A stretch of DNA of 34,741 nt, from assembly GCA_902590435.1 (NCBI GenBank), contig CACIWU010000011.1, forward strand, positions 1 through 34,741, given 5' to 3'. Source of the stretch: an uncultured SAR324 cluster bacterium. GTDB taxonomy: Bacteria > SAR324 > NAC60-12. This document shows positions 23,060 through 34,741 of this stretch, piece by piece. A program made the translations under genes and the position numbers. Numbering within the stretch: position 1 is the stretch's first letter; each line of letters starts with the position of its first letter. The notes beneath the pieces are model-generated. The model was given only the letters and a program-made list of their open reading frames with translations. It was not told where the DNA came from and made no database searches.

Positions 23060-24670
23060 CTACTTTACAAAATATTCTTGCCAAGAATTTTCTGCTTTAT
23101 CTCCAAAAAGTATTTCGCAAACTTTTTTTATTTCTTCTGAGTTTTTTAATTCTTTGTGGGGAACAACTATCGCGATTTTTGAGCGACGTTTTAAAAAATC
23201 TTCTAAAGTTACTATCATTTCATTTTTAGCTGCTTCATTTAATTCACATTTTAAATAATCTGATCCTTTAATCAAAGGCTCCGCCATCTTAGGATTATCA
23301 ACAATCTTATCTAATAAGCTAATAGCTCTATCTCCGTATAGCCTCCAGAGCCGTTTTGATAAGTATTCTGAAGCCCCAAAAGTAGTTAAATCATCTAACC
23401 TCTTTAGATTAGCTTTTTTAAAAAATTCCTCCCTCACTTCATCACTTGGCTCCCCATACCACTTTTTTTTTGATTCAACGAGATTAACTCCCAACTGAGA
23501 AACCACCTTACAAATTTCTTCTCCAACATTGAGGCAGTCCGTTAGCTTACCTCCAAAAATACTAATGTGTTTCCGATCAAAATCCACATCAATTTCATGC
23601 TTCCGAGAAAGCTTTGTCCATTCATCAGTCTTATTTTCTACATCATCTGATTTTATAACCAAAGGACGTACTCCACAGCGTTCAGAAATAATGTCATTAT
23701 CTGATAATGGTTTTTTTAAATTCAGTCTTTTATTAATATTGTCCAGAACAAAACTTCTATCATCTTTATTTATTTTTGTCTCGGGCTTAGATACTCGAGT
23801 ATCAGTTGTCCCAATCATAGTACGATTTTCAAATGGAATGGCAAAAAACAAACGACCATCATCAGCAAAAAAAGTCAGTATTCTTTTTTTATCCGTAATT
23901 TTTGGAACGATTAGATGAATACCTTTTGAATATACATGACGATGTGGCGTTACCATATTTGAAAAATTATTCTGTATATCTACAAAAGGTCCACATGCGT
24001 TAATAATTAAATCGCTTTTTACTTCCAAAATTTCTCCATTTACAACATCCCTAAGTCGAGTTAGCCATAGATTTTCCTCATTTCTAGAGCTACCCAAAGA
24101 CTCCATGTAATTGATGGCTGTACAATTGTTTTCAATTGCAGAACGAATAAAGTTAAAAACAAATCTAGAATCGCCATCAAAAAGAAATGCATCAGAATAT
24201 TCAAATCCTCCCGTACTACGACTTACATTTAATACAGGCTCAATTTTTTTAATATTATTTTTAGTCAGTAATCTAGGAGGTCGTGTAAAAAAATTACCGA
24301 TCGCCCAATAAATAATAGCACCACAAAATAAAGAAAATGGATTAAATCTGAACCCTTTTTCTAAATTAGCAAAAAATCGTATTTCTTTTATCGATGAAGG
24401 ATAAGATCGGATTAACAGATTTCTAGACTTACACAATTTTCTTACTAAAGAAAATTCATAAGTTTCCAAATATTTTATTCCGCCCCAAACAAGATTTGAA
24501 GAATTTTGACTAGTAAAACCAGCAAAATCTCTCTTTTCAACCAGAGCAACTCTAGCTCCTCTAGCAGATAAAGAAGCTGCAGAAACTGCTCCGTTTATTC
24601 CTCCACCAATAATTAAAACATCAAAGTTTTTTTCAGATATTCTTTTAATATTTAAATCTCTCAAGTTCAT
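23060..24670 (-). CDS. glpD: Aerobic glycerol-3-phosphate dehydrogenase (FAD)
   Basis: I use the ATG at 24670 (536 residues); an in-frame TTG four codons upstream is a weaker alternative. The FAD-binding motif GGGINGA is at residues 22-28, followed by the substrate and flavin region TSQNSSNLVWGGIKYLE and later GTTDTRV and FGGKLTD, all typical of GlpD. It oxidises sn-glycerol-3-phosphate to dihydroxyacetone phosphate at the inner membrane and passes electrons to quinone. Length agrees with GlpD (about 500-540). It is the last gene of the same-strand organophosphate cluster, 170 bases after the phosphodiesterase gene. No glpK or glpF is nearby, so the cell is set up to use ready-made glycerol-3-phosphate rather than glycerol. 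Confidence 0.94.
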   Translation of the reverse strand: MNLRDLNIKRISEKNFDVLIIGGGINGAVSAASLSARGARVALVEKRDFAGFTSQNSSNLVWGGIKYLETYEFSLVRKLCKSRNLLIRSYPSSIKEIRFFANLEKGFRFNPFSLFCGAIIYWAIGNFFTRPPRLLTKNNIKKIEPVLNVSRSTGGFEYSDAFLFDGDSRFVFNFIRSAIENNCTAINYMESLGSSRNEENLWLTRLRDVVNGEILEVKSDLIINACGPFVDIQNNFSNMVTPHRHVYSKGIHLIVPKITDKKRILTFFADDGRLFFAIPFENRTMIGTTDTRVSKPETKINKDDRSFVLDNINKRLNLKKPLSDNDIISERCGVRPLVIKSDDVENKTDEWTKLSRKHEIDVDFDRKHISIFGGKLTDCLNVGEEICKVVSQLGVNLVESKKKWYGEPSDEVREEFFKKANLKRLDDLTTFGASEYLSKRLWRLYGDRAISLLDKIVDNPKMAEPLIKGSDYLKCELNEAAKNEMIVTLEDFLKRRSKIAIVVPHKELKNSEEIKKVCEILFGDKAENSWQEYFVK

Positions 24671-24840
24671 ATTTTTTTTCAAGTAAAAACACCTAAAACA
24701 AATTTTTTATATTTTTTATATTTAATTAATGCACTAGAAATAATTTTTTGAGGAATTTCATAAAAAAAGATTCTTTCTAATACCAAATTTAAAATTATCT
24801 TTTATTATGAATATGGAAAACTTTTTAACATTAAAATATT

Positions 24841-25668
24841 CTAATTTAATAATTCTCCACTTTCTGAATAAAAAGGATAAGGACCATCGAAATTACCAAC
24901 AAAACTTAAATGTGAGACTACATTTTTGTCCGTTTTGTTTAATTTAAATATTCTTATTGATGGAGGCTCCATAATAAACATAGGAGGACCTTCTGAAACT
25001 AAATCCAAATTAACAGAATGAGCACCATTTGGAGCAATACTTACCCCTATACCATTAATAACTGTTTCAGTTGCTCGATGAACATGACCACATGCAATAT
25101 GTTTAACTTGAGGATGTGACTTAAGAATCTCAAAAAATTCATCTGAATTTTTAAGGTTTTGATTATCCATCCCGTCAATTCCTGTTAAAAATGGATGGTG
25201 ATGCATAAATAAAAAAGTTGGTTTGCTGGAGTAAATCTTTAAATTTTCATCTAACCATCTTAGACGTTCACTACACAGTTCCCCATAATTTTTACCAGGT
25301 ACTGTAGTATCAATCCCAATTAAAGTAAAAGGTAAATTATCAATAACATAATGACAGAATTTTTCATGTCTTGGTAAATAATCATGTTTTTTAAAAAATT
25401 TAAAAATATTTTGATTATTATCATGATTACCTGGTATTAAAAACCATGGCATATCTAATAATTCAATTATTTTACTGAATGCTTCATATTCTTCTATTTG
25501 CCCTGAATCGCTAATATCTCCAGTTACAATTGTAAGATCTATTTTGGGATTAAATTTGTTGCAGTGCTCTACAACATTTTTCAGACTTGAAGCTGAATCT
25601 AAAACATTTCCATAAGCTAATCCCCCATTGGGTTTAATATGAGTATCTGTTATTTGAGCTATTAACAT
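24841..25668 (-). CDS. GpdQ-like glycerophosphodiesterase (metallophosphoesterase)
   Basis: A 275-residue calcineurin-like phosphodiesterase, nearly the same length as Enterobacter GpdQ (274). The dinuclear metal ligands fall at matching positions: Asp8 and His10 (TDTH), Asp51 (TGDIS), Asn81 (PGNHD), His156/157 (MHHHP), His195 and His197 (CGHVH). GpdQ hydrolyses glycerophosphodiesters (for example glycerophosphoethanolamine) to glycerol-3-phosphate plus an alcohol. CpdA (3',5'-cAMP phosphodiesterase) is a relative with the same motifs, but the transporter and glpD context favours a glycerophosphodiester. There is no signal peptide, so it acts in the cytosol on imported diesters. It follows the ABC ATPase gene by 11 bases with a GGA before the ATG, so it is part of that operon. 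Confidence 0.85.
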   Translation of the reverse strand: MLIAQITDTHIKPNGGLAYGNVLDSASSLKNVVEHCNKFNPKIDLTIVTGDISDSGQIEEYEAFSKIIELLDMPWFLIPGNHDNNQNIFKFFKKHDYLPRHEKFCHYVIDNLPFTLIGIDTTVPGKNYGELCSERLRWLDENLKIYSSKPTFLFMHHHPFLTGIDGMDNQNLKNSDEFFEILKSHPQVKHIACGHVHRATETVINGIGVSIAPNGAHSVNLDLVSEGPPMFIMEPPSIRIFKLNKTDKNVVSHLSFVGNFDGPYPFYSESGELLN

Positions 25669-25679
25669 TTTTTATCCAG

Positions 25680-26687
25680 CTAATTTGGTAATATTATTAA
25701 CGAGTCGACGTTAAACCTGAGATGAATTTCTGATCCAATTACATATTCTTTTTTGTATCTACCTTCTAACGACAATTGTTCCCCCGCATTATAATTTACT
25801 ATTAGACGAGTTTTTTCACCTAAAAAAAAAGACGCTTTTACAACACCTGTTAAATGACTGTATTTTTTTTCAACTATTTCTATGTCTTCAGGCCTAAATA
25901 GTAACTCCTTTCCTTCTAAGGAATCTAATTTTTTAATATCACTTCCCAAAATACGGTTAACGGTTCCTATAAAATCAGCAACAAATTCATTCTGTGGATG
26001 ATAATAAATATCCCTTGGAGTTCCAATCTGAGAAATTTTACCATCACTCATTACAACAATTCTGTCCCCAAGTGCCATTGCTTCAGACTGGTCATGAGTT
26101 ACATAAATGGCCGTAATTCCAAGACTTCTAAGTAGACTATCTATTTCAACTCTTAGTCTATCTCTTAAAATTGCATCAAGAGCGGTTAATGGTTCATCCA
26201 ACAAAAGCACTCTAGGCCTTACAGCAATAGCTCTTGCCAAAGCCACCCTTTGTCGTTGACCACCTGACAACTGATCTATTCTTCTAAGTGACAAATCATT
26301 AATATGCATCATTTCAAGCATTTCTGACACACGATCATCAATTTTATTTTTATCTAATTTCCTTACTTTTAAACCGTAGCCTATGTTTTCTTTTACATTC
26401 ATATTCGGGAACAATGCATACGATTGAAAAACCATCCCCACATTCCTTTTTTCTATCTGTAGATCAGTAACATTTTCTTTGTTAAAAATAATTTTACCAC
26501 CTTCATCTGGTTCCTCAAGACCTGCAATAATTCTCAATAAAGTTGTTTTACCACATCCAGATGGTCCTAGCAAAACTATAGTTTCTCCTCCATTTATATT
26601 AAGATTTATTTTTTCTAATGCACGAGTACCATCTTTAAAGGTTTTGCCACAAGAAATCAGCTCAATTGAAGTGGTGTCTTTTTGCAT
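25680..26687 (-). CDS. ABC importer ATPase (PotA/FbpC type)
   Basis: I place the start at the ATG at 26687 (335 residues, MQKDTTSIELISCG), because the frame's first ATG at 26747 lies inside the upstream permease gene. The nucleotide-binding domain shows Walker A GPSGCGKTT, Q-loop FQSYALFPN, signature LSGGQRQR, Walker B VLLLDEP and the switch His in VTHDQ. The C-terminal part (about 245-335) is a TOBE-like regulatory domain, as in spermidine, ferric and sugar-phosphate importers. It powers the two permeases encoded directly upstream. The DNA between the permease stop and this ATG is AT-only with no clear ribosome site. Confidence 0.9.
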   Translation of the reverse strand: MQKDTTSIELISCGKTFKDGTRALEKINLNINGGETIVLLGPSGCGKTTLLRIIAGLEEPDEGGKIIFNKENVTDLQIEKRNVGMVFQSYALFPNMNVKENIGYGLKVRKLDKNKIDDRVSEMLEMMHINDLSLRRIDQLSGGQRQRVALARAIAVRPRVLLLDEPLTALDAILRDRLRVEIDSLLRSLGITAIYVTHDQSEAMALGDRIVVMSDGKISQIGTPRDIYYHPQNEFVADFIGTVNRILGSDIKKLDSLEGKELLFRPEDIEIVEKKYSHLTGVVKASFFLGEKTRLIVNYNAGEQLSLEGRYKKEYVIGSEIHLRFNVDSLIILPN

Positions 26688-26712
26688 AAAAATTTTATAA
26701 TTTACAATTTTA

Positions 26713-27492
26713 TTAATTCTTTTCCCTTGAAAGTATTTGCATTCCAAGAAGTAGAGGAATTATCATTATGAAAAAAATCAATGTATAAGCACTTGCCACT
26801 TCTAATCTCATTGAAGCATAGCTATCAGCAAGCCCTACTGGTAGAGTTTTTGTCACGGGTGTATGTAGCATCCAAGTTAAATTGAATTCCCCAATTGATA
26901 AAGTAAAAACCATCAAAGAACCTGCTAAAATACCCGGTTTAGAATTAGGCAGTACTATAGTAAAAAACCTTGTCCAAAATGAAGCTCCTAAGCTTGCTGC
27001 ACCTTCTTCCAGCTCTTTAAAATTTGTTGAAGATAACACCGCTAATACTGATCTTACCATAAATGGTAGGGTAAAAAGAATATGCCCAACCAAAATAAAA
27101 TACCAACTTGATCTAAAGTCACGAAAACCACCGTAAATTATTATTAGTGCTAAGGCTATTGCTAAGCCTGGAACAGCGACTGGCAAAATTATAGTCTCTT
27201 CAATAAATCTCGAGATTCTCCCTCCAATTCTAGCTAAAACGTATGCTGCCGGAATACCTATAACCAATGTCGCTATTAAACAAGCAATTGCAATCATTAA
27301 TGAAAGATAGATAGTCCCTGAATACAAATCTAAGACTTCAAAAACCCATCGGAGAGTAAATCCACTTTTGATTCCAACAAAAAAATTTTGAGTTATTCCT
27401 GCAAGTACCGAAAGAAATACTGGAATTATCAAAAAAGAGCAGACAAGGAGAGTAAAAATTAACTGTATAACAAAAATTTGTTTTTTGTTCAT
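26713..27492 (-). CDS. ABC importer permease 2 (FbpB/PhnV-like)
   Basis: A 259-residue inner-membrane protein with about six transmembrane helices. The EAA loop that docks the ATPase reads EEGAASLGASFWTRFFTIVLPNSKPG (around residues 155-180, quoted only in part of its length). It belongs to the BPD_transp_1 permeases of the small-anion, ferric and polyamine type. It begins seven bases after permease 1 and is followed after 25 bases by the ATPase gene. It pairs with permease 1 to form the channel for the same substrate. Confidence 0.88.
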   Translation of the reverse strand: MNKKQIFVIQLIFTLLVCSFLIIPVFLSVLAGITQNFFVGIKSGFTLRWVFEVLDLYSGTIYLSLMIAIACLIATLVIGIPAAYVLARIGGRISRFIEETIILPVAVPGLAIALALIIIYGGFRDFRSSWYFILVGHILFTLPFMVRSVLAVLSSTNFKELEEGAASLGASFWTRFFTIVLPNSKPGILAGSLMVFTLSIGEFNLTWMLHTPVTKTLPVGLADSYASMRLEVASAYTLIFFIMIIPLLLGMQILSREKN

Positions 27493-27499
27493 CGATCAA

Positions 27500-28321
27500 T
27501 TAACCAGATACAGCTATTGTTTGACCAGATAGACTCCTGGATATGAAAAGAGCAATCCATGTCACTAAACCCAAAACAATAGATAAACTTGCTGCTCCAG
27601 CAATATTTGCATTAAGTGTAAACTCAGTATAAATTGTCATTGGAAGGACATCTATGTTTGTGGCTAATGTAAATGCAGTCCCAAACGCACCCATCGAAGT
27701 TGCAAAACAAATAGCTCCTGAAGCTATCAAACCTGGTTTTAAAGCTGGGATGATAATATCAATTACAATTCTAAAAGGAGGAGCCCCTAGAGACTTAGCT
27801 GCTTCCTCTAGCGATTTATCAAGTTTTTCAGCTGCAGCCATTATGGTTAAAATTACCCTAGGTATTGAAAAATATAAATATCCAAAAAACAATCCTAACA
27901 TAGAATATGCAAATACTGTTTTTTCGCCCAATAAGGCTTTAGTAACTAATCCTATCAATCCCTGTCGGCCAGCTAACATAATTATTAAAAAACCTATTAC
28001 GACTCCTGGGAAAGCTAGTGGGAAAGTAAGTATTGACAAAACTATTTCTTTACCTGGGAAAATATTTCTCACAAGAAATAATCCTGCTGTTGTAGAAATG
28101 ACTAATGCTGTAAACGTCACTGCAATTGAAAGTAGTAACGTGGCTAACATACTTTCAAAATGCCTAGGTGTATTAACTATAGTAAAATATGATGAGACAC
28201 CAGAATCACCACTAGCACCTACAATTGCTAATTGAACCATTGGCACTATAAAAAAAGTAACAAAAAAAATTGCTACTGGTAAAGCCAAAACAAAAAGTTT
28301 AGGATAATCGTAATATTTCAT
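27500..28321 (-). CDS. ABC importer permease 1 (FbpB/PhnU-like)
   Basis: A 273-residue inner-membrane permease with about six transmembrane segments, opening FVLALPVAIFFVTFFIVPMVQ. The EAA loop EEAAKSLGAPPFRIVIDI precedes IPALKPG, the usual ATPase contact. Its gene starts 59 bases after the binding-protein stop, and the space between holds a stem-loop. No Shine-Dalgarno is evident. It forms the heterodimeric channel with permease 2. Confidence 0.88.
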   Translation of the reverse strand: MKYYDYPKLFVLALPVAIFFVTFFIVPMVQLAIVGASGDSGVSSYFTIVNTPRHFESMLATLLLSIAVTFTALVISTTAGLFLVRNIFPGKEIVLSILTFPLAFPGVVIGFLIIMLAGRQGLIGLVTKALLGEKTVFAYSMLGLFFGYLYFSIPRVILTIMAAAEKLDKSLEEAAKSLGAPPFRIVIDIIIPALKPGLIASGAICFATSMGAFGTAFTLATNIDVLPMTIYTEFTLNANIAGAASLSIVLGLVTWIALFISRSLSGQTIAVSG

Positions 28322-28341
28322 TAATATATTAGAAAAAATAT

Positions 28342-28372
28342 ATTAAGAGGTAGCTTTAAACTACCTCTTAAT
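28342..28372 (-). terminator. Attenuating stem-loop between binding-protein and permease genes
   Basis: ATTAAGAGGTAG (28342-28353) and CTACCTCTTAAT (28361-28372) form a perfect 12-bp stem with a 7-base loop. On the transcribed (minus) strand it is followed by ATATTTTTTC, a short U tract. This is an intrinsic-terminator shape placed right after the binding-protein stop. It likely stops part of the transcripts, or protects the 5' message, giving more binding protein than permease. Confidence 0.7.
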
Positions 28373-28380
28373 TGATCAAT

Positions 28381-29394
28381 TTATCTTACTTCATTTAGAT
28401 AACGTTCTTTAAATGAATTTTGTACCGCTGCCATTTTAGCATAATCGAGTGGTTTTGATCTCGCATAGTCTGATGCTGGAAGGAACTTTGAGGCAGCTTC
28501 GCTAGACATCGCTGATGCTCTAATGGGTCTCAAAAATGCGTTCGCCCATACTTTTTGACCATCATCTGACATTATGAAATCTAAAATACTTTTTCCTTTA
28601 GCTGGATTAGGACTATTTTTGACCAAACTCATAACATAAGGAACCACTACTGTCCCTTCTTGAGGTATAACAAAAACAACATTAGCTTTATCCTTATACT
28701 TCCCTCTGTAAGCATTAAAGTCATAATCAAAAAGGATAGGTATCTCTCCAGATAATACCCTTGCATATGATGTTTGTTTAGGAACTATAGGTTTGTTTTT
28801 TGACAACTTCTTAAAATAATTAATTCCAGGATCAAAGTTATTTAGACTTCCCCCCATAGCTCTGTTGACTGCAACAGCTCCTGCATAACCTACAAATGCT
28901 GATGATGGATCTAAATATCCAATCATACCTTTATACATAGGTTTCAACAAATCTGACCATGATTGTGGAACGGGTGCACCTTCAAGAGCATCCACGTTAA
29001 CAAAAAAACCCAAAGTCCCTGAATGAATTGTAAACCATTTCCCTTGGGGATCCTTCAATCCATCCGGAATTTCATCAAAATGTCGAGGTTTGTAAGCTTC
29101 TACAACTCCTTTTTGCCCTGCTTGAATTCCAAAAGAAACTCCATAGTATGCAACATCAGCTACAGGACTATTTTTTTCTGCAAGTAGTTGTGACAGTGTT
29201 TGTCCAGAATTTTTGTTATCGTGAGGGATATCATATCCTAAATGTTTCTTTATCATTTTAAGTTGACTAGCCCAATCTGCCCATTGTGGAGGGCAATTAT
29301 AACATATTGCATCCGCCCCATATATACTCATAGATCCCACAAATATCAACACTACACTTGCTAAAGAAAATTTACTTATAATTTTTTTATACAT
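28381..29394 (-). CDS. FbpA/AfuA-type extracellular solute-binding protein
   Basis: A 337-residue periplasmic binding protein with a Sec signal (MYKKIISKFSLASVVLIFVGS..., probably cut after YGA or ADA). The mature part opens CYNCPPQWADW and contains DIPHDNKNSGQ, IHSGTLGFFVN, YLDPSSAFVGY, TSYARVLSGEIPILFDYDFNAY and VIPQEGTVVVPYVMSL. The overall pattern is that of the ferric/anion-type cluster D binding proteins that also includes hexose-phosphate AfuA and 2-aminoethylphosphonate PhnS. The ferric Tyr pair of FbpA is not evident, so iron is unlikely. Flanked by GlpQ upstream and GpdQ/GlpD downstream, an organophosphate ligand is inferred; the exact ligand is unknown. GGAG lies nine bases before the ATG. 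Confidence 0.85.
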   Translation of the reverse strand: MYKKIISKFSLASVVLIFVGSMSIYGADAICYNCPPQWADWASQLKMIKKHLGYDIPHDNKNSGQTLSQLLAEKNSPVADVAYYGVSFGIQAGQKGVVEAYKPRHFDEIPDGLKDPQGKWFTIHSGTLGFFVNVDALEGAPVPQSWSDLLKPMYKGMIGYLDPSSAFVGYAGAVAVNRAMGGSLNNFDPGINYFKKLSKNKPIVPKQTSYARVLSGEIPILFDYDFNAYRGKYKDKANVVFVIPQEGTVVVPYVMSLVKNSPNPAKGKSILDFIMSDDGQKVWANAFLRPIRASAMSSEAASKFLPASDYARSKPLDYAKMAAVQNSFKERYLNEVR

Positions 29395-29561: not shown

Positions 29562-30584
29562 TTATTTTTTTCCCTTTTCAACAAATTTAAAAACTTGATC
29601 TGGGAAATCAGTAAAAATTCCGTCTACTTTTAATTCATTGAAAAAAATATGGAGAAGATGATCAAATGAGTCAAAATAACTTGGGAATTTATCTGCCCTA
29701 AATGTGTACGGGTGTACCTTCAAATTTAGTTCATGTGCTCTTCGTACTATTTCGGTGAATTTTAAATCTCCTGATATATTCTTACCTGATACCACTTGTT
29801 TAATCCACGGTCCTATTCCATTAGCATATACTGATATTTCTTTAAGTCCTTTATATGTTTTTAAATAATTAAAATCAGTATCTGAAAGCCCCCATCTGTT
29901 TTCACCGATTAGCTGAGTCAGCCTAAGTTTAGTTTTATATTTTTGTCTCATTGTTATTAAAACTTCTGAATCAAATGATTGAATCCAAATAGGGTCCGAT
30001 GCTTCTCGATAATCATATCTATCTAGTATAACCAAAAGTTTATCCACAGGATTTAAATTATATTTTTGATGTGTAGCAAATCCTTTGATTTCAATATATA
30101 ATCCCATTATACGTCCATGGCTTTTTTTGAGACCTATCAACAATTTCAAAATTTCTTCCAGAGTTGGGACTTTAAAAAGACTGTATTCATTCGGGAACCT
30201 AGCTTGAAATACTTGACTAGACCCATTTTTTTTTAAACGTTCATTTACTCTTAATTTTCTTACTTCATCTAATGTAAATTCCATTGAAAAATAATTACCA
30301 TTTATATCCGAACGATCTGGAAAAATTTCTTCAACATTTGTAGTCGCATTTAGTGTTAAGTCATGCATAACAATAAGATGTCCATCTTTAGTCATAACAA
30401 CATCTAATTCAAGAAAATCTGATCCCATCGCGAAAGCTAATGCGGCACCTTCAAGAGTGTGCTCTGGCAAATAACCAGATGCTCCCCTATGAGCTATTAT
30501 TAATTTTTTTTGATTGGCAAATGATTCTAAAGGTATAGCTAATAAAATGATTAAAAAAAATATATTTAGAAAAAATTTCCGCAT
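29562..30584 (-). CDS. glpQ: Periplasmic glycerophosphodiester phosphodiesterase (GlpQ type)
   Basis: A 340-residue GDPD-family enzyme with a Sec signal (residues 1-23, ending SFA). The TIM-barrel active site shows His32-Arg33 (AHRGASG), Glu59 and Asp61 (LELDVV) and His74 (MHDLTL). The GDPD insertion with FPDRSDINGNYF and the long mature length match E. coli GlpQ (358) rather than the short cytosolic UgpQ (247). It hydrolyses glycerophospho-choline, -ethanolamine, -glycerol and similar diesters in the periplasm, giving glycerol-3-phosphate for Ugp uptake. Its gene is downstream of ugpC after 211 bases and 167 bases before the next binding-protein gene. Confidence 0.93.
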   Translation of the reverse strand: MRKFFLNIFFLIILLAIPLESFANQKKLIIAHRGASGYLPEHTLEGAALAFAMGSDFLELDVVMTKDGHLIVMHDLTLNATTNVEEIFPDRSDINGNYFSMEFTLDEVRKLRVNERLKKNGSSQVFQARFPNEYSLFKVPTLEEILKLLIGLKKSHGRIMGLYIEIKGFATHQKYNLNPVDKLLVILDRYDYREASDPIWIQSFDSEVLITMRQKYKTKLRLTQLIGENRWGLSDTDFNYLKTYKGLKEISVYANGIGPWIKQVVSGKNISGDLKFTEIVRRAHELNLKVHPYTFRADKFPSYFDSFDHLLHIFFNELKVDGIFTDFPDQVFKFVEKGKK

Positions 30585-30795: not shown

Positions 30796-31851
30796 TTAGT
30801 TTATCCTTTTGCCTGATTCTCTATTGAAAAGATGTATAACTTCTGGTGAGATACTAAAACTCATTTCCTTTTGCATATCTTTTTGATCAACTAAACCTTG
30901 AACCATGGACACAATCTTTATATCTGAGTTTTTCAAAGTACCATGCAGTATAGTACTCGCTCCGATTGGTTCTGCCATGTCAATTTGTATAATAATTTCT
31001 CCTTTTTTATCAGGTAAAAGATCTTCAGGTCTTAAACCCGCCAATACTTCTCCACTGAAATTAGTTACACATTTAAGTAATACCCCATTCTCAAGTTTAA
31101 TACTTTGCCCATCAGTGACTCCCTTTATTAAATTCATAGCAGGACTGCCAATAAATTGAGCAGAAAAAATTGTTTCAGGTTTTTGAAAAACATCAAGAGG
31201 AGATCCAATTTGTTCTGCAACTCCTTCATTCATAACTACCATTCTATCAGCTAATGTCATAGCCTCAACTTGATCATGTGTTACAAACAAAGAAGTTGTT
31301 CCCAATCTCTGTTGTAATGATTTAATTTCAAGACGCATTTGAATCCTCAATTTCGCATCCAAATTAGATAGTGGTTCGTCAAATAAAAATACTGCCGGCT
31401 TTCTAACAATAGCTCTCCCCATAGCAACTCTCTGCCTCTGACCTCCAGATAATTCCCTTGGTTTCCTCTCTAGTAACTCACCAAGCTCTAACATCTTAGC
31501 CGCTTCTTGTACCCTTTCACTAATTTCTAATTTTGGGATACCAGCTATTTTCAACCCATAAGCCATATTTTTAAAAACACTCATATGAGGATAAAGTGCA
31601 TAATTTTGGAATACCATTGCAATATTTCTATCCATTGGTTCTTTATTATTGACGTTAAGATTATCAATAAGAATTTCTCCAGAAGTAACATTTTCTAAGC
31701 CTGCTATCATTCGAAGTAAAGTTGATTTTCCACATCCCGAAGGGCCTACTATTACAATGAATTCTCCATCACTTATCTCCATGTTAATTCCATGAAGAAC
31801 CTTTGTTTTTCCAAAAGATTTTTGAATGTCCTTAATTATTAATCCAGCCAT
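30796..31851 (-). CDS. ugpC: Glycerol-3-phosphate ABC importer ATPase UgpC
   Basis: A 351-residue MalK/UgpC-type ATPase. I use the ATG at 31851, whose MAGLIIKDIQKSFG aligns with E. coli UgpC; the longer frame begins with GTG inside the ugpE end. Walker A GPSGCGKST, Q-loop FQNYALYPH, signature ELSGGQRQRVAMGRA, Walker B VFLFDEPLSNLDAK and switch VTHDQVEAMT are present, and FIGSPAMNL marks the start of the regulatory TOBE domain. It energises UgpAE uptake of sn-glycerol-3-phosphate and glycerophosphodiesters. The start lies four bases after the ugpE stop. In E. coli UgpC is also inhibited by internal phosphate through its C-terminal domain. Confidence 0.94.
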   Translation of the reverse strand: MAGLIIKDIQKSFGKTKVLHGINMEISDGEFIVIVGPSGCGKSTLLRMIAGLENVTSGEILIDNLNVNNKEPMDRNIAMVFQNYALYPHMSVFKNMAYGLKIAGIPKLEISERVQEAAKMLELGELLERKPRELSGGQRQRVAMGRAIVRKPAVFLFDEPLSNLDAKLRIQMRLEIKSLQQRLGTTSLFVTHDQVEAMTLADRMVVMNEGVAEQIGSPLDVFQKPETIFSAQFIGSPAMNLIKGVTDGQSIKLENGVLLKCVTNFSGEVLAGLRPEDLLPDKKGEIIIQIDMAEPIGASTILHGTLKNSDIKIVSMVQGLVDQKDMQKEMSFSISPEVIHLFNRESGKRIN

Positions 31852-31855
31852 AATA

Positions 31856-32713
31856 TCATTTTTCACTATCTGTTAAGCCTCGGATAAATAGCTTTTGCAT
31901 AGAAACAACAACTATAATCGGAGGCAACATTGCCATTATTGAAGCAGCCATAACTACTGGCCACGGTGTAACATCATCCTGACCTCCTATCATCTGTTCT
32001 ACACCCATTATTACAGTATTCATTGATGTATCAGTTGTCATTAGAAGTGGCCAAAGGAACTGATTCCATCCATAAATAAACATTATAATAAATAGAGCTG
32101 CTATGTTCGTACGACTTATAGGGATCAAAATATCAATAAAAAAACGCATCGGTTTGGCTCCGTCGATCCTTGCAGCTTCAATTATTTCATCAGGTACTGT
32201 CATAAAAAATTGTCTAAAAAGAAAGGTTGCTGTTGCAGAGGCTATAAGAGGGAATATTAATCCAGAATAAGTATTCAGTAAACCAAAACTAGCAACAACT
32301 TCGTATGTGGGAAGGATTCTTACTTCTACAGGTAACATTAAGGTTAGGAATATTAACCAGAAAAAAATATTTTTCGCAGGGAATCTAAAAAATACTATAG
32401 CAAATGCTGATGTAAATGAAATAGCTATTTTACCCACGGCAATACCTATTGCAACTATAGAAGTATTTAACAACATCCTAGCAACTGAGGCAGATGTTTG
32501 ACCACTATCTCCTTTAATTAAGGCTCTACTATAATTTTCTACCAACTTATCACCAGGCCATAATGGCATAGGCGGATGAATTACCTCTTCATTTGTAACA
32601 GTAGAAGCTACAAAGGCCAGCCAAAGAGGAAAAAACAAAATCAAAACACCTGATGTAAGGCCTGCATGAGTTAGCCAGTAACTAATTCCTTTTTTTTCAA
32701 CCATTCCAGACAT
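31856..32713 (-). CDS. ugpE: Glycerol-3-phosphate ABC importer permease UgpE
   Basis: A 285-residue permease with six transmembrane helices, closely matching UgpE (281 in E. coli), including TLMLPVEVRI, PLIASATATFLFRQFFM and the exact C-terminal RGLTDSEK pattern. The EAA loop is IIEAARIDGAKPMRFFIDIL followed by IPISRTN. It pairs with UgpA to form the channel. Its ATG overlaps the ugpA stop (TAATG), so translation is coupled, giving equal subunit amounts. The N-terminal 15 residues are hydrophilic and cytosolic. Confidence 0.95.
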   Translation of the reverse strand: MSGMVEKKGISYWLTHAGLTSGVLILFFPLWLAFVASTVTNEEVIHPPMPLWPGDKLVENYSRALIKGDSGQTSASVARMLLNTSIVAIGIAVGKIAISFTSAFAIVFFRFPAKNIFFWLIFLTLMLPVEVRILPTYEVVASFGLLNTYSGLIFPLIASATATFLFRQFFMTVPDEIIEAARIDGAKPMRFFIDILIPISRTNIAALFIIMFIYGWNQFLWPLLMTTDTSMNTVIMGVEQMIGGQDDVTPWPVVMAASIMAMLPPIIVVVSMQKLFIRGLTDSEK

Positions 32714-33594
32714 TAATAATGAACCCTTTTCTCTACAAATTTAAATTGTAAAATAGTCAAAATACCAACAATAACTAGTAAAATAACTGACTGTGCTGCA
32801 GATGATCCAAGATCAAGACCTACAAAACCATCTGAATAAACTTTATAAACTAGGATAGTTGTCGATTGACCAGGTCCACCTTTAGTTATAGTATGAATAA
32901 CGCCAAAGGTATCAAAAAAAGCATATACGATATTCATTACAACTAAGAAAAAAGTAATGGGAGACAAAAGTGGAAATACAATCGTTAAAAAACGCCTCCA
33001 AAAACGAGCGCCATCGATAGCAGCGGCTTCAATAATTGATTTTGGAATAGCTTGCAACCCAGCCAAAAAAAATAAAAAATTGTAACTCACTCTACTCCAA
33101 GTAGAAACAATAACTACCAACCCCATCGCTTCATTATGATTTAAAAGATGATTCCAATCATAGCCCATTAATCCGAGATACCACGAAATTAGCCCGGTTC
33201 GAGTATCAAATAAAAACATCCAAAGTATTCCCGCAATAGCTGGCGCAACAGCGTATGGCCAAATCAATAGTGTTTTATAAATTCCTGCTCCCTTTATTAA
33301 ACGATCTGCAAGAACTGCAAGAAAAAGTGCTAATCCCATTGAAAAAAAAGTTACCAGGACTGAAAATATAGCTGTTGTATAAAAGCTTTCTTTATAATAT
33401 GGGTCAGAGAAAAGGAATTCAAAATTTGCTAAACCTACAAATTTTGTATTTAAACCAAATGGATCTGGATTGAAAAGAGACCACCAAATTGCTGTGCCCG
33501 CAGGATAAAAAAAGAATACTGCAGTTATAAATAATTGGGGTGCTATGAGGAGAACGGGTAAAAACCAACCCTTAAAATGTACTCTTTTTTCCAT
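32713..33594 (-). CDS. ugpA: Glycerol-3-phosphate ABC importer permease UgpA
   Basis: A 293-residue permease starting at the ATG at 33594; the frame also includes a TTG one codon upstream. It has six transmembrane segments, and the opening KGWFLPVLLIAPQLFITAVF and the IWWSLFNPDPFGLNTKFVGL segment are typical of UgpA. The EAA loop IIEAAAIDGARFWRRFLTIV is followed by FPLLSP. Late segments DTFGVIHTITKGGPGQST and LVYKVYSDGFVGLDLGS also match. It forms the channel with UgpE, whose start codon overlaps its stop. A stem-loop lies between ugpB and this gene. Confidence 0.95.
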   Translation of the reverse strand: MEKRVHFKGWFLPVLLIAPQLFITAVFFFYPAGTAIWWSLFNPDPFGLNTKFVGLANFEFLFSDPYYKESFYTTAIFSVLVTFFSMGLALFLAVLADRLIKGAGIYKTLLIWPYAVAPAIAGILWMFLFDTRTGLISWYLGLMGYDWNHLLNHNEAMGLVVIVSTWSRVSYNFLFFLAGLQAIPKSIIEAAAIDGARFWRRFLTIVFPLLSPITFFLVVMNIVYAFFDTFGVIHTITKGGPGQSTTILVYKVYSDGFVGLDLGSSAAQSVILLVIVGILTILQFKFVEKRVHY

Positions 33595-33610
33595 CAAAAA
33601 CTATAAATTA

Positions 33611-33641
33611 TTTGTGGAGGAGTTTTTGATTCCCCCACAAA
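33611..33641 (-). terminator. Stem-loop between ugpB and ugpA
   Basis: TTTGTGGAGGA (33611-33621) pairs with TCCCCCACAAA (33631-33641): 11 pairs, one of them G-U in the RNA, with a 9-base loop. It begins nine bases after the ugpB stop. A short T run (GTTTTTG) occurs on the transcribed strand about eight bases after the stem. The position is like the stem-loop after the other binding-protein gene; partial termination or mRNA protection would give UgpB excess. Confidence 0.65.
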
Positions 33642-33649
33642 AATAATAA

Positions 33650-34741
33650 CTAGCGGTTAGAAGATTCAAATCTTCGAAGTAAAACATTTCCTCTCTTAAC
33701 AGCACTATCAAGCGCTGATTTTGCAGTCTTTTTTCCACTCCAAACATTTTCTAATTCTTCATCAATCATCCCACGAATTTGATCGAAAGATCCAAGCCTA
33801 AGTCCTTTTGATACTGAAGTTGGTGATTTACGGGTCATTTGGATTCCAGCAATATCTGTCCCAGGATTTGAATCGTAAAAACCTGATTCTTTAGTTTTTT
33901 GACTCGCAACCATAGTAACTGGCAAGTAACCCGTATTTTGATGCCATGCTGACTGGATTACTGGCGATGAAAGAAAACTGAGGAAGGCTGCAACACCTTT
34001 ATATTCTTTTGAACTGTGTCCAGACAAAACCCATAACGAAGATCCTCCAATAATAGTATTTTGAGGTGCACCTTTAACTCCTTCCCAATATGGTAGATGT
34101 CTTATTTCAAAATCAAACTTTGCATTTTTCTTAATACCAGCATAACCAGCAGATGATTCTGTGTAAAGAGCACATTCTCCTGCTCGAAAGGCATTACCTC
34201 CCTCATTCCTTCTACCGGAATAAATAAATTTTCCTTCCTTAGCCCAATCACCCATAGCCTGTACGTGTTTTACTTGAACTGGTCCGTTAAATACTAATTC
34301 AGTATCCATTCCTGCAAATCCATTCTCTTTTGAAGCAAACGCAACATTGTGATATGCCGATAAGTTCTCTAAATGGACCCAACTTTGCCAAGCCGTAGTC
34401 AAGGGACACTTGTTACCAGAAGACTTTAATTTATCAAGAGCTACTCCGACTTTTTGCCAAGTTGATAAGTCCATATCTGGATTCAATCCAGCTTTTTTAA
34501 ATGCATCCCTATTGACCCATAAAACTGGTGTCGAGGAATTATAAGGCATAGAAAGCATTTCTCCTGATGTGGTAGTATAGTATCCTTTTACAGGACCAAT
34601 AAAACCATCTGGATCAAATCTTACGCCTGCTTCTGACATTACCTCATACATTGGTTTTATTGCTCCTTTGGCAGCCATCATTGATGCGGTCCCAACCTCA
34701 AAAACCATTAAAATATGAGGATGCTTTCGCGCTCTAAAAGC
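33650..34741 (-). CDS. ugpB: Glycerol-3-phosphate binding protein UgpB, N-terminus beyond window edge
   Basis: The frame stays open to the right edge (363 residues and a stop). The ATG at 34708 is internal, because the codons before it (AFRARKHPHIL, then MVFEVGTASMM) continue the alignment with E. coli UgpB. About 70 residues, including the signal peptide, are missing. Visible UgpB features include KGAIKPMYEVM, YYTTTSGEMLSMPYNSSTPVLWVN, CPLTTAWQSWVHLENLSAYHN and GGSSLWVLSGHSSKEYKG. This periplasmic protein binds sn-glycerol-3-phosphate and glycerophosphocholine and delivers them to UgpAE. It is the first visible gene of the operon ugpB-A-E-C-glpQ. Any promoter or Pho box lies outside the window. 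Confidence 0.94.
   Translation of the reverse strand, partial: AFRARKHPHILMVFEVGTASMMAAKGAIKPMYEVMSEAGVRFDPDGFIGPVKGYYTTTSGEMLSMPYNSSTPVLWVNRDAFKKAGLNPDMDLSTWQKVGVALDKLKSSGNKCPLTTAWQSWVHLENLSAYHNVAFASKENGFAGMDTELVFNGPVQVKHVQAMGDWAKEGKFIYSGRRNEGGNAFRAGECALYTESSAGYAGIKKNAKFDFEIRHLPYWEGVKGAPQNTIIGGSSLWVLSGHSSKEYKGVAAFLSFLSSPVIQSAWHQNTGYLPVTMVASQKTKESGFYDSNPGTDIAGIQMTRKSPTSVSKGLRLGSFDQIRGMIDEELENVWSGKKTAKSALDSAVKRGNVLLRRFESSNR

Follow-up and report, generated by a model that had tools for sequence, protein, structure and literature searches.

Import of an intact sugar phosphodiester, followed by its cleavage inside the cell by a dedicated phosphodiesterase, is known from agrocinopine uptake by Acc in Agrobacterium and from xanthosan uptake by XanT/XanP in Xanthomonas. 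Acc reportedly uses a binding protein of another family than the one described here, the Opp/Dpp type (SBP_bac_5). In the xanthosan system, XanT transports across the outer membrane in a TonB-dependent manner, and the enzyme XanP belongs to the 2H phosphoesterases (PMC12807533). GpxB and UgpB serve organophosphate uptake in marine bacteria; the former is of the PhnD type (TC 3.A.1.9), the latter of the CUT1 type, and both bind glycerol-1/3-phosphates, which are phosphomonoesters (PMC12718374). AfuABC and VcA0625 (hexose-6-phosphate) and P5PA (pyridoxal phosphate, PLP; PMC8427247) belong to the same SBP_bac_6 superfamily and have the same importer architecture as the system studied here; the AfuABC paper does not mention a phosphodiesterase (PMC4546632). 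Here we describe a five-gene cassette on a 34,741-nucleotide contig (CACIWU010000011.1, assembly GCA_902590435.1; hereafter the window) of an uncultured SAR324 cluster bacterium. Judged from sequence comparison, the cassette probably encodes an importer for an intact organophosphate diester coupled to a cytosolic hydrolase.

A conserved importer-phosphodiesterase cassette

The cassette consists of genes for a substrate-binding protein (SBP), two permeases, an ATPase and a class III metallophosphodiesterase (PDE), all intact and co-directional (29394-24841, minus strand; Table 1) and separated, in this order, by 59, 7, 25 and 11 nt. Pfam domain assignments were unambiguous for all five genes, and the SBP falls in the FbpA/AfuA/PhnS superfamily. 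Walker A (GPSGCGKTT), signature (LSGGQRQR) and Walker B (VLLLDEP) motifs could be read in the ATPase, whose open reading frame was mechanically called from TTG 26747, inside the permease 2 gene; the start is most likely ATG 26687. A preliminary description of this DNA had listed the same five genes, packed with gaps of 7-59 bases, and had assigned the SBP to the FbpA/AfuA group and the PDE to the GpdQ-like enzymes; all of this was recovered, the two assignments through the SBP_bac_6 match and through GpdQ, the protein of solved structure that matched the PDE best (4.6e-30).

When 84,980 species genomes were scanned, 80 loci had SBPs of 64-84% identity; they came from Alpha-, Beta- and Gammaproteobacteria, Desulfobacterota, SAR324 and Rokubacteria. 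As determined by tblastn, the order SBP-permease-permease-ATPase was kept in 74 loci and the PDE was present in 66 of the 71 orthologous loci with enough sequence, thus the cassette is not a chance arrangement. Permease 1 identity was 54-77% across the orthologous loci. In 64 of 73 loci with enough upstream sequence a gene for a LacI-type regulator lay directly upstream, and the resulting six-gene order was also found in annotated records of Ruegeria TM1040, Agrobacterium and Roseovarius. Because SBP identities in a plasmid collection fall sharply, from about 62% to 40%, the cassette SBPs can be regarded as a discrete family. The module is not peculiar to the window's genome and is conserved across many bacteria.

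Clustering of the flanking genes of the orthologous loci gave no widespread conserved partner other than LacI and PDE, and no shared palindrome that could serve as a LacI operator was found upstream of the SBP genes. In Marinobacterium, Oceanimonas and Oceanisphaera a HAD-IIB phosphatase gene (sucrose-phosphatase-like subfamily) follows the PDE gene after 3 nt (L041:14625-15431, L042:14630-15457 and L049:14633-15448). On a plasmid of Roseovarius sp. Pro17 (L103:649-12441) the LacI gene and the five cassette genes follow pstSCAB-phoU-phoB immediately and in the same orientation. Other genes were seen in place of the PDE gene in a few loci: a metF-like (methylenetetrahydrofolate-reductase-like) gene after the ATPase gene in two related alphaproteobacteria (L056, L061; by-eye reading), a xylose-isomerase-like TIM barrel of the AP_endonuc_2 family in a deltaproteobacterial locus (L059:5581-6399) and an amidase-like gene in L080 (by-eye reading). 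In L063 the expected PDE position is a partly masked stretch.

The binding protein and its pocket

An AlphaFold2 model of the SBP, built from an alignment of 81 orthologues, had a predicted local distance difference test score (pLDDT) of 91.9. Foldseek searches with this model returned 5t1p (Campylobacter jejuni, no ligand identity given) first, followed by VcA0625 and AfuA; 5t1p is the closest solved SBP (29% identity). The FbpA/HitA-like fold and the generic superfamily annotation would fit an importer of iron or a ferric complex. The ferric ligands of FbpA, which we take to be H9, E57, Y195 and Y196, align (with an FbpA sequence checked against 1d9v) to P36, G85, F226 and N227 of the SBP. 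None of the four ligands is kept, in line with the preliminary description, to which they were not evident, and G85, F226 and N227 are invariant in the 81 orthologues; iron transport is therefore extremely improbable.

According to a second alternative, the system imports a phosphomonoester (sugar phosphate) as AfuA does, and the PDE is an accessory acting on another cytosolic substrate. The closest characterised solved relatives, the glucose-6-phosphate binders VcA0625 and AfuA and the PLP binder P5PA, speak for it. The AfuA ligands are S37 and T150 on the phosphate side and H205, D206 and E229 on the sugar side (PMC4546632). S37 is conserved as S63, whereas T150, H205, D206 and E229 are replaced by V168, N227, A228 and V251, so that one of five ligands is kept, these positions being sequence mappings in which local shifts of one or two residues are possible. 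Nor would a monoester importer need the PDE, which is nevertheless kept in nearly all loci, and other phosphoesterases adjoin sister importers (see below). Taken together, we consider this alternative very unlikely.

The family has two motifs in common with its sister clades. The first, W-x-[DNG]-[WY], occupies the position of the H9 loop in FbpA; the second, [WY]-D-[FY]-N, coincides with FbpA Y195-Y196 and AfuA H205. The second is missing from AfuA, P5PA, PhnS and FbpA; the comparison of the first covered FbpA, the sequences of the other three being cut at that place. Rhizobium-type relatives have the first motif and YEND in place of the second. We infer that both motifs line the pocket, and the ligand is probably contacted by the helix start at S63, the W38/W41 loop and the D225-F226-N227 loop. 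Structure prediction and comparison with the AfuA and PhnS pockets had been proposed in the preliminary description: prediction gave the confident model, sequence alignment showed the single shared AfuA ligand, and for PhnS the difference is, at the sequence level, the absence of the second motif.

The best NCBIfam matches of the SBP and the ATPase were PhnS-type and PhnT2 models, as in an importer of 2-aminoethylphosphonate or another phosphonate. All scores were far below the equivalog cut-offs (SBP 108 against 310 and 96 against 395; ATPase 352 against 458), and flanking-gene clustering detected no recurring phosphonate-cleaving gene adjoining the cassette, which makes phosphonate import highly improbable. 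The ferric, AfuA-type and PhnS-type readings were thus rejected on pocket residues and NCBIfam cut-offs. The system also falls outside Ugp (CUT1), as the ATPase scored 314 on UgpC (cut-off 432) and the SBP had no UgpB match, and outside the Acc (Opp/Dpp) type, since the Pfam matches of the SBP are SBP_bac_6/8/11/1 and not SBP_bac_5. Identity with GpxB was rejected on family assignment, PhnD-type for GpxB (PMC12718374) as against SBP_bac_6 here.

The phosphodiesterase

All seven ligands of the binuclear metal site of GpdQ, the Enterobacter/Klebsiella glycerophosphodiesterase (D8 H10 D50 N80 H156 H195 H197), have counterparts in the PDE (D8 H10 D51 N81 H156 H195 H197), and these are invariant in 71 orthologues. 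Y19, H82, M167-D168 and a C-terminal extension with GP(W/Y/H) are likewise as in GpdQ. The two enzymes are about 29% identical and differ in that the PDE is encoded with its own importer and has R198, which is invariant in the orthologues and absent from GpdQ (S at this position) and Rv0805. Because the catalytic motif begins at residue 8, the PDE has no signal peptide; it should therefore be cytosolic and meet its substrate after import. The window's genome has a second class III PDE (G000:C45:4733-5497), 32% identical to that of the cassette.

Related importers paired with phosphoesterases

The sister importers described here are selected examples, drawn from a small number of genomes and from plasmid records, and not a systematic sample. 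The SBP of a plasmid-borne Pseudomonas aeruginosa cluster, presumably PA3250-like, and 5t1p share W-A-[DN]-W and [WY]-D-F-N with the window family. The P. aeruginosa operon (L095:4790-11059), on a plasmid-borne piece with minCDE, resembles some of the cassettes in co-encoding a phosphodiesterase and a HAD phosphatase. It differs in that its type I phosphodiesterase (PF01663, alkaline phosphatase (AP) superfamily) is unrelated to GpdQ and its regulator is of the GntR/UTRA and not the LacI type. An Enterococcus faecium operon (L096:5830-10413) also carries a PF01663 enzyme; both operons are apparently uncharacterised. In Halopenitus the sister importer is accompanied by a HAD protein and a calcineurin-type metallophosphoesterase for which BLAST gave no similarity to the PDE of the window, and in Pantoea by both PF01663 and Metallophos proteins.

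If the imported substrate is a diester, importers should be found paired again and again with phosphodiesterases that are unrelated to one another. The whole superclade of FbpA-fold SBPs with both motifs, which extends over proteobacteria, firmicutes and haloarchaea, may consist of intact organophosphate-diester importers, with a different cytosolic phosphodiesterase of separate ancestry recruited in each branch (GpdQ-type, type I/nucleotide pyrophosphatase (NPP)-type or other calcineurin-type); we put this forward as a serious but still tentative possibility.

A relative from the same genus as the window's genome (L121:682-7852) has an Opp/Dpp-type importer (SBP_bac_5, two permeases, two ATPases) with a class III PDE, 36% identical to that of the window, 24 nt downstream. 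This second, unrelated importer-PDE pairing recalls agrocinopine uptake.

Proposed function and substrate

An organophosphate diester is the best-supported class of substrate because the PDE is cytosolic and nearly always coupled to the importer, and because phosphoesterases of unrelated kinds accompany the sister importers; on the same grounds the import of an intact phosphodiester, already proposed in the preliminary description, gains support. The HAD-IIB phosphatase genes next to the PDE gene, the position behind pstSCAB-phoU-phoB in Roseovarius and the Opp/Dpp-type importer-PDE pairing of the same-genus relative also speak for it. From these data we infer that the system transports its substrate, that this substrate is a diester, which way the pathway runs and that it is induced. 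The SBP would capture the diester in the periplasm, the permeases and the ATPase would bring it intact into the cell, and the GpdQ-like binuclear enzyme would cut it to a phosphomonoester and an alcohol. The monoester would then enter central metabolism; a GlpD-like gene follows the cassette in the window, and a HAD phosphatase gene in some gammaproteobacteria. In most species the LacI-type regulator would probably make the module substrate-inducible; the window has no such gene, none having been found by the tblastn neighbourhood comparison. Agrocinopine and xanthosan uptake would share this working principle, realised with unrelated parts.

Several observations weigh against this proposal. 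Five orthologous loci with room for the PDE lack it (L056, L059, L061, L063, L080), and relatives at 28-40% identity in Sinorhizobium, Mycetohabitans and Tistrella have no adjoining phosphoesterase. The signal-peptide-bearing GlpQ of the window would be a periplasmic competitor for glycerophosphodiesters, and among the orthologous loci compared the ugp/glpQ/glpD surroundings occur in this genome only. The closest NCBIfam models of the PDE are SpdA (156 bits, cut-off 400) and CpdA (125, cut-off 225), both cyclic-nucleotide phosphodiesterases and both under cut-off, and class III enzymes of this fold also cleave cyclic nucleotides.

The last points bear on the possibility that the substrate is not a lipid headgroup diester but a nucleotide-type one (a 2',3'-cyclic nucleotide, a dinucleotide or a nucleotide-sugar/ADP-ribose-like compound). 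Such a substrate would agree with SpdA, a 2',3'-cyclic nucleotide phosphodiesterase, being the closest model, with CytR, RbsR and PurR being the best models of the LacI protein of one locus (L007; all under cut-off), with the nucleotide pyrophosphatase family of the P. aeruginosa sister enzyme and with the SLOG-family and NUDIX genes adjoining a Rhizobium relative. These scores are all at the family level only, the closest solved PDE is GpdQ, the neighbours in the window are glycerol-phosphate genes, and flanking-gene clustering of window-type cassettes brought up no recurring nucleosidase or nucleotidase gene. We therefore regard a nucleotide diester as unlikely. That the substrate is a diester of one chemistry or the other is, by contrast, very likely.

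Within the organophosphate-diester proposal, a glycerophosphodiester is tentatively favoured because the window neighbours are glycerol-phosphate genes; LacI control and the sister-enzyme family leave room for sugar- or nucleotide-type diesters. The suggestion in the preliminary description that the importer takes what Ugp handles badly gained no support, since the GlpQ of the window would hydrolyse periplasmic glycerophosphodiesters beforehand.

Genomic context, transcription and origin

The cassette lies between ugp-glpQ and glpD (Table 1). UgpB (33650-34708) lacks its N-terminus (first ~88 residues) at the contig end and matches profile positions 89-438 of 439. The GlpD-like protein scored 250 bits on PRK12266, below the cut-off of 360. 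The one close locus from the same genus (GlpQ 67%, UgpC 82% identity) stops at a contig edge. GC content is low and uniform throughout the window.

Table 1. Features of the cassette and its surroundings in the window
Feature	Position	Strand	Evidence
GlpD-like glycerol-3-phosphate dehydrogenase, downstream of PDE (158-base gap)	23060-24682	minus	DAO 4.6e-33
PDE, class III metallophosphodiesterase, GpdQ-like, 275 aa	24841-25668	minus	Metallophos PF00149 3e-20
ATPase	25680-26687	minus	ABC_tran PF00005 7e-39 + TOBE_2 PF08402
Permease 2	26713-27492	minus	PF00528 BPD_transp_1 1.9e-15; EAA loop EEGAASLGASFWTRFFTIVLPNSKPG; orthologous loci
Permease 1	27500-28321	minus	PF00528 BPD_transp_1 1.2e-14; EAA loop EEAAKSLGAPPFRIVIDIIIPALKPG
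Terminator-like hairpin, 14-bp stem then T-run	28342-28372	minus	SBP-permease 1 gap
SBP, periplasmic substrate-binding protein, 337 aa, signal peptide	28381-29394	minus	PF13343 SBP_bac_6 6.3e-41
glpQ, upstream of cassette; signal-peptide-bearing glycerophosphodiesterase	29562-30584	minus	NF008354 327.5 bits, cut-off 254
ugpC, ugpE, ugpA, ugpB	30796-34708	minus	NF008653 517 bits, NF008211 474 bits, both above cut-off

The hairpin between the SBP and permease 1 genes has a fold z of -5.3, equalled by none of 200 shuffles. In the same gap of orthologous loci a folded structure with z<-2, computed against simple letter shuffles, was found in 49 of 78 cases. Structures of this kind are typical of read-through attenuation or mRNA processing after a highly expressed SBP gene. 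With the hairpin in the 59-base gap, the SBP and the permeases are probably unequally expressed. The folded structures point to attenuation, or to stabilisation of the mRNA, behind the SBP gene rather than to a split into separate units. The single transcription unit assumed in the preliminary description may exist, with the terminator-like element as a qualification.

Three of 52 genomes of the window's phylum contain the cassette. In a 75-row tree the window copy groups with alphaproteobacterial copies (Shimodaira-Hasegawa-like approximate likelihood ratio test (SH-aLRT) 98), another member of the same family of genomes sits elsewhere among the Alphaproteobacteria, and a class-level relative groups with Desulfobacterota copies. 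A single SAR324 clade was rejected (approximately unbiased (AU) test, p 7.8e-6). The tree suggests separate horizontal acquisitions as the simplest explanation; for single rows, binning errors in metagenome-assembled genomes are possible.

Novelty and implications

No paper on this operon was found in a literature search with open-access coverage, outside which most subscription journals lie, and in public genomes the cassette genes are named only as generic ABC transporter or phosphodiesterase. The preliminary description had suggested that the system could be new; it belongs to a widespread family, present in about 80 genomes. Import followed by cleavage is a known kind of uptake, whereas the SBP family and its pairing with the PDE are apparently undescribed, absence from the open-access literature being weak evidence of novelty.

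If the proposed function is correct, the cassette would provide marine and soil bacteria with a defined, testable way to use dissolved organic phosphorus and the carbon of lipid headgroups. It would also supply a substrate class for a large share of the FbpA/AfuA superfamily, most of it so far unassigned, including the P. aeruginosa cluster and possibly 5t1p of C. jejuni. Should the proposal extend to the whole superclade, 'import first, cut inside' would be a general, so far unrecognised way of using organic phosphorus and carbon, beside the known 'cut outside, import product'.

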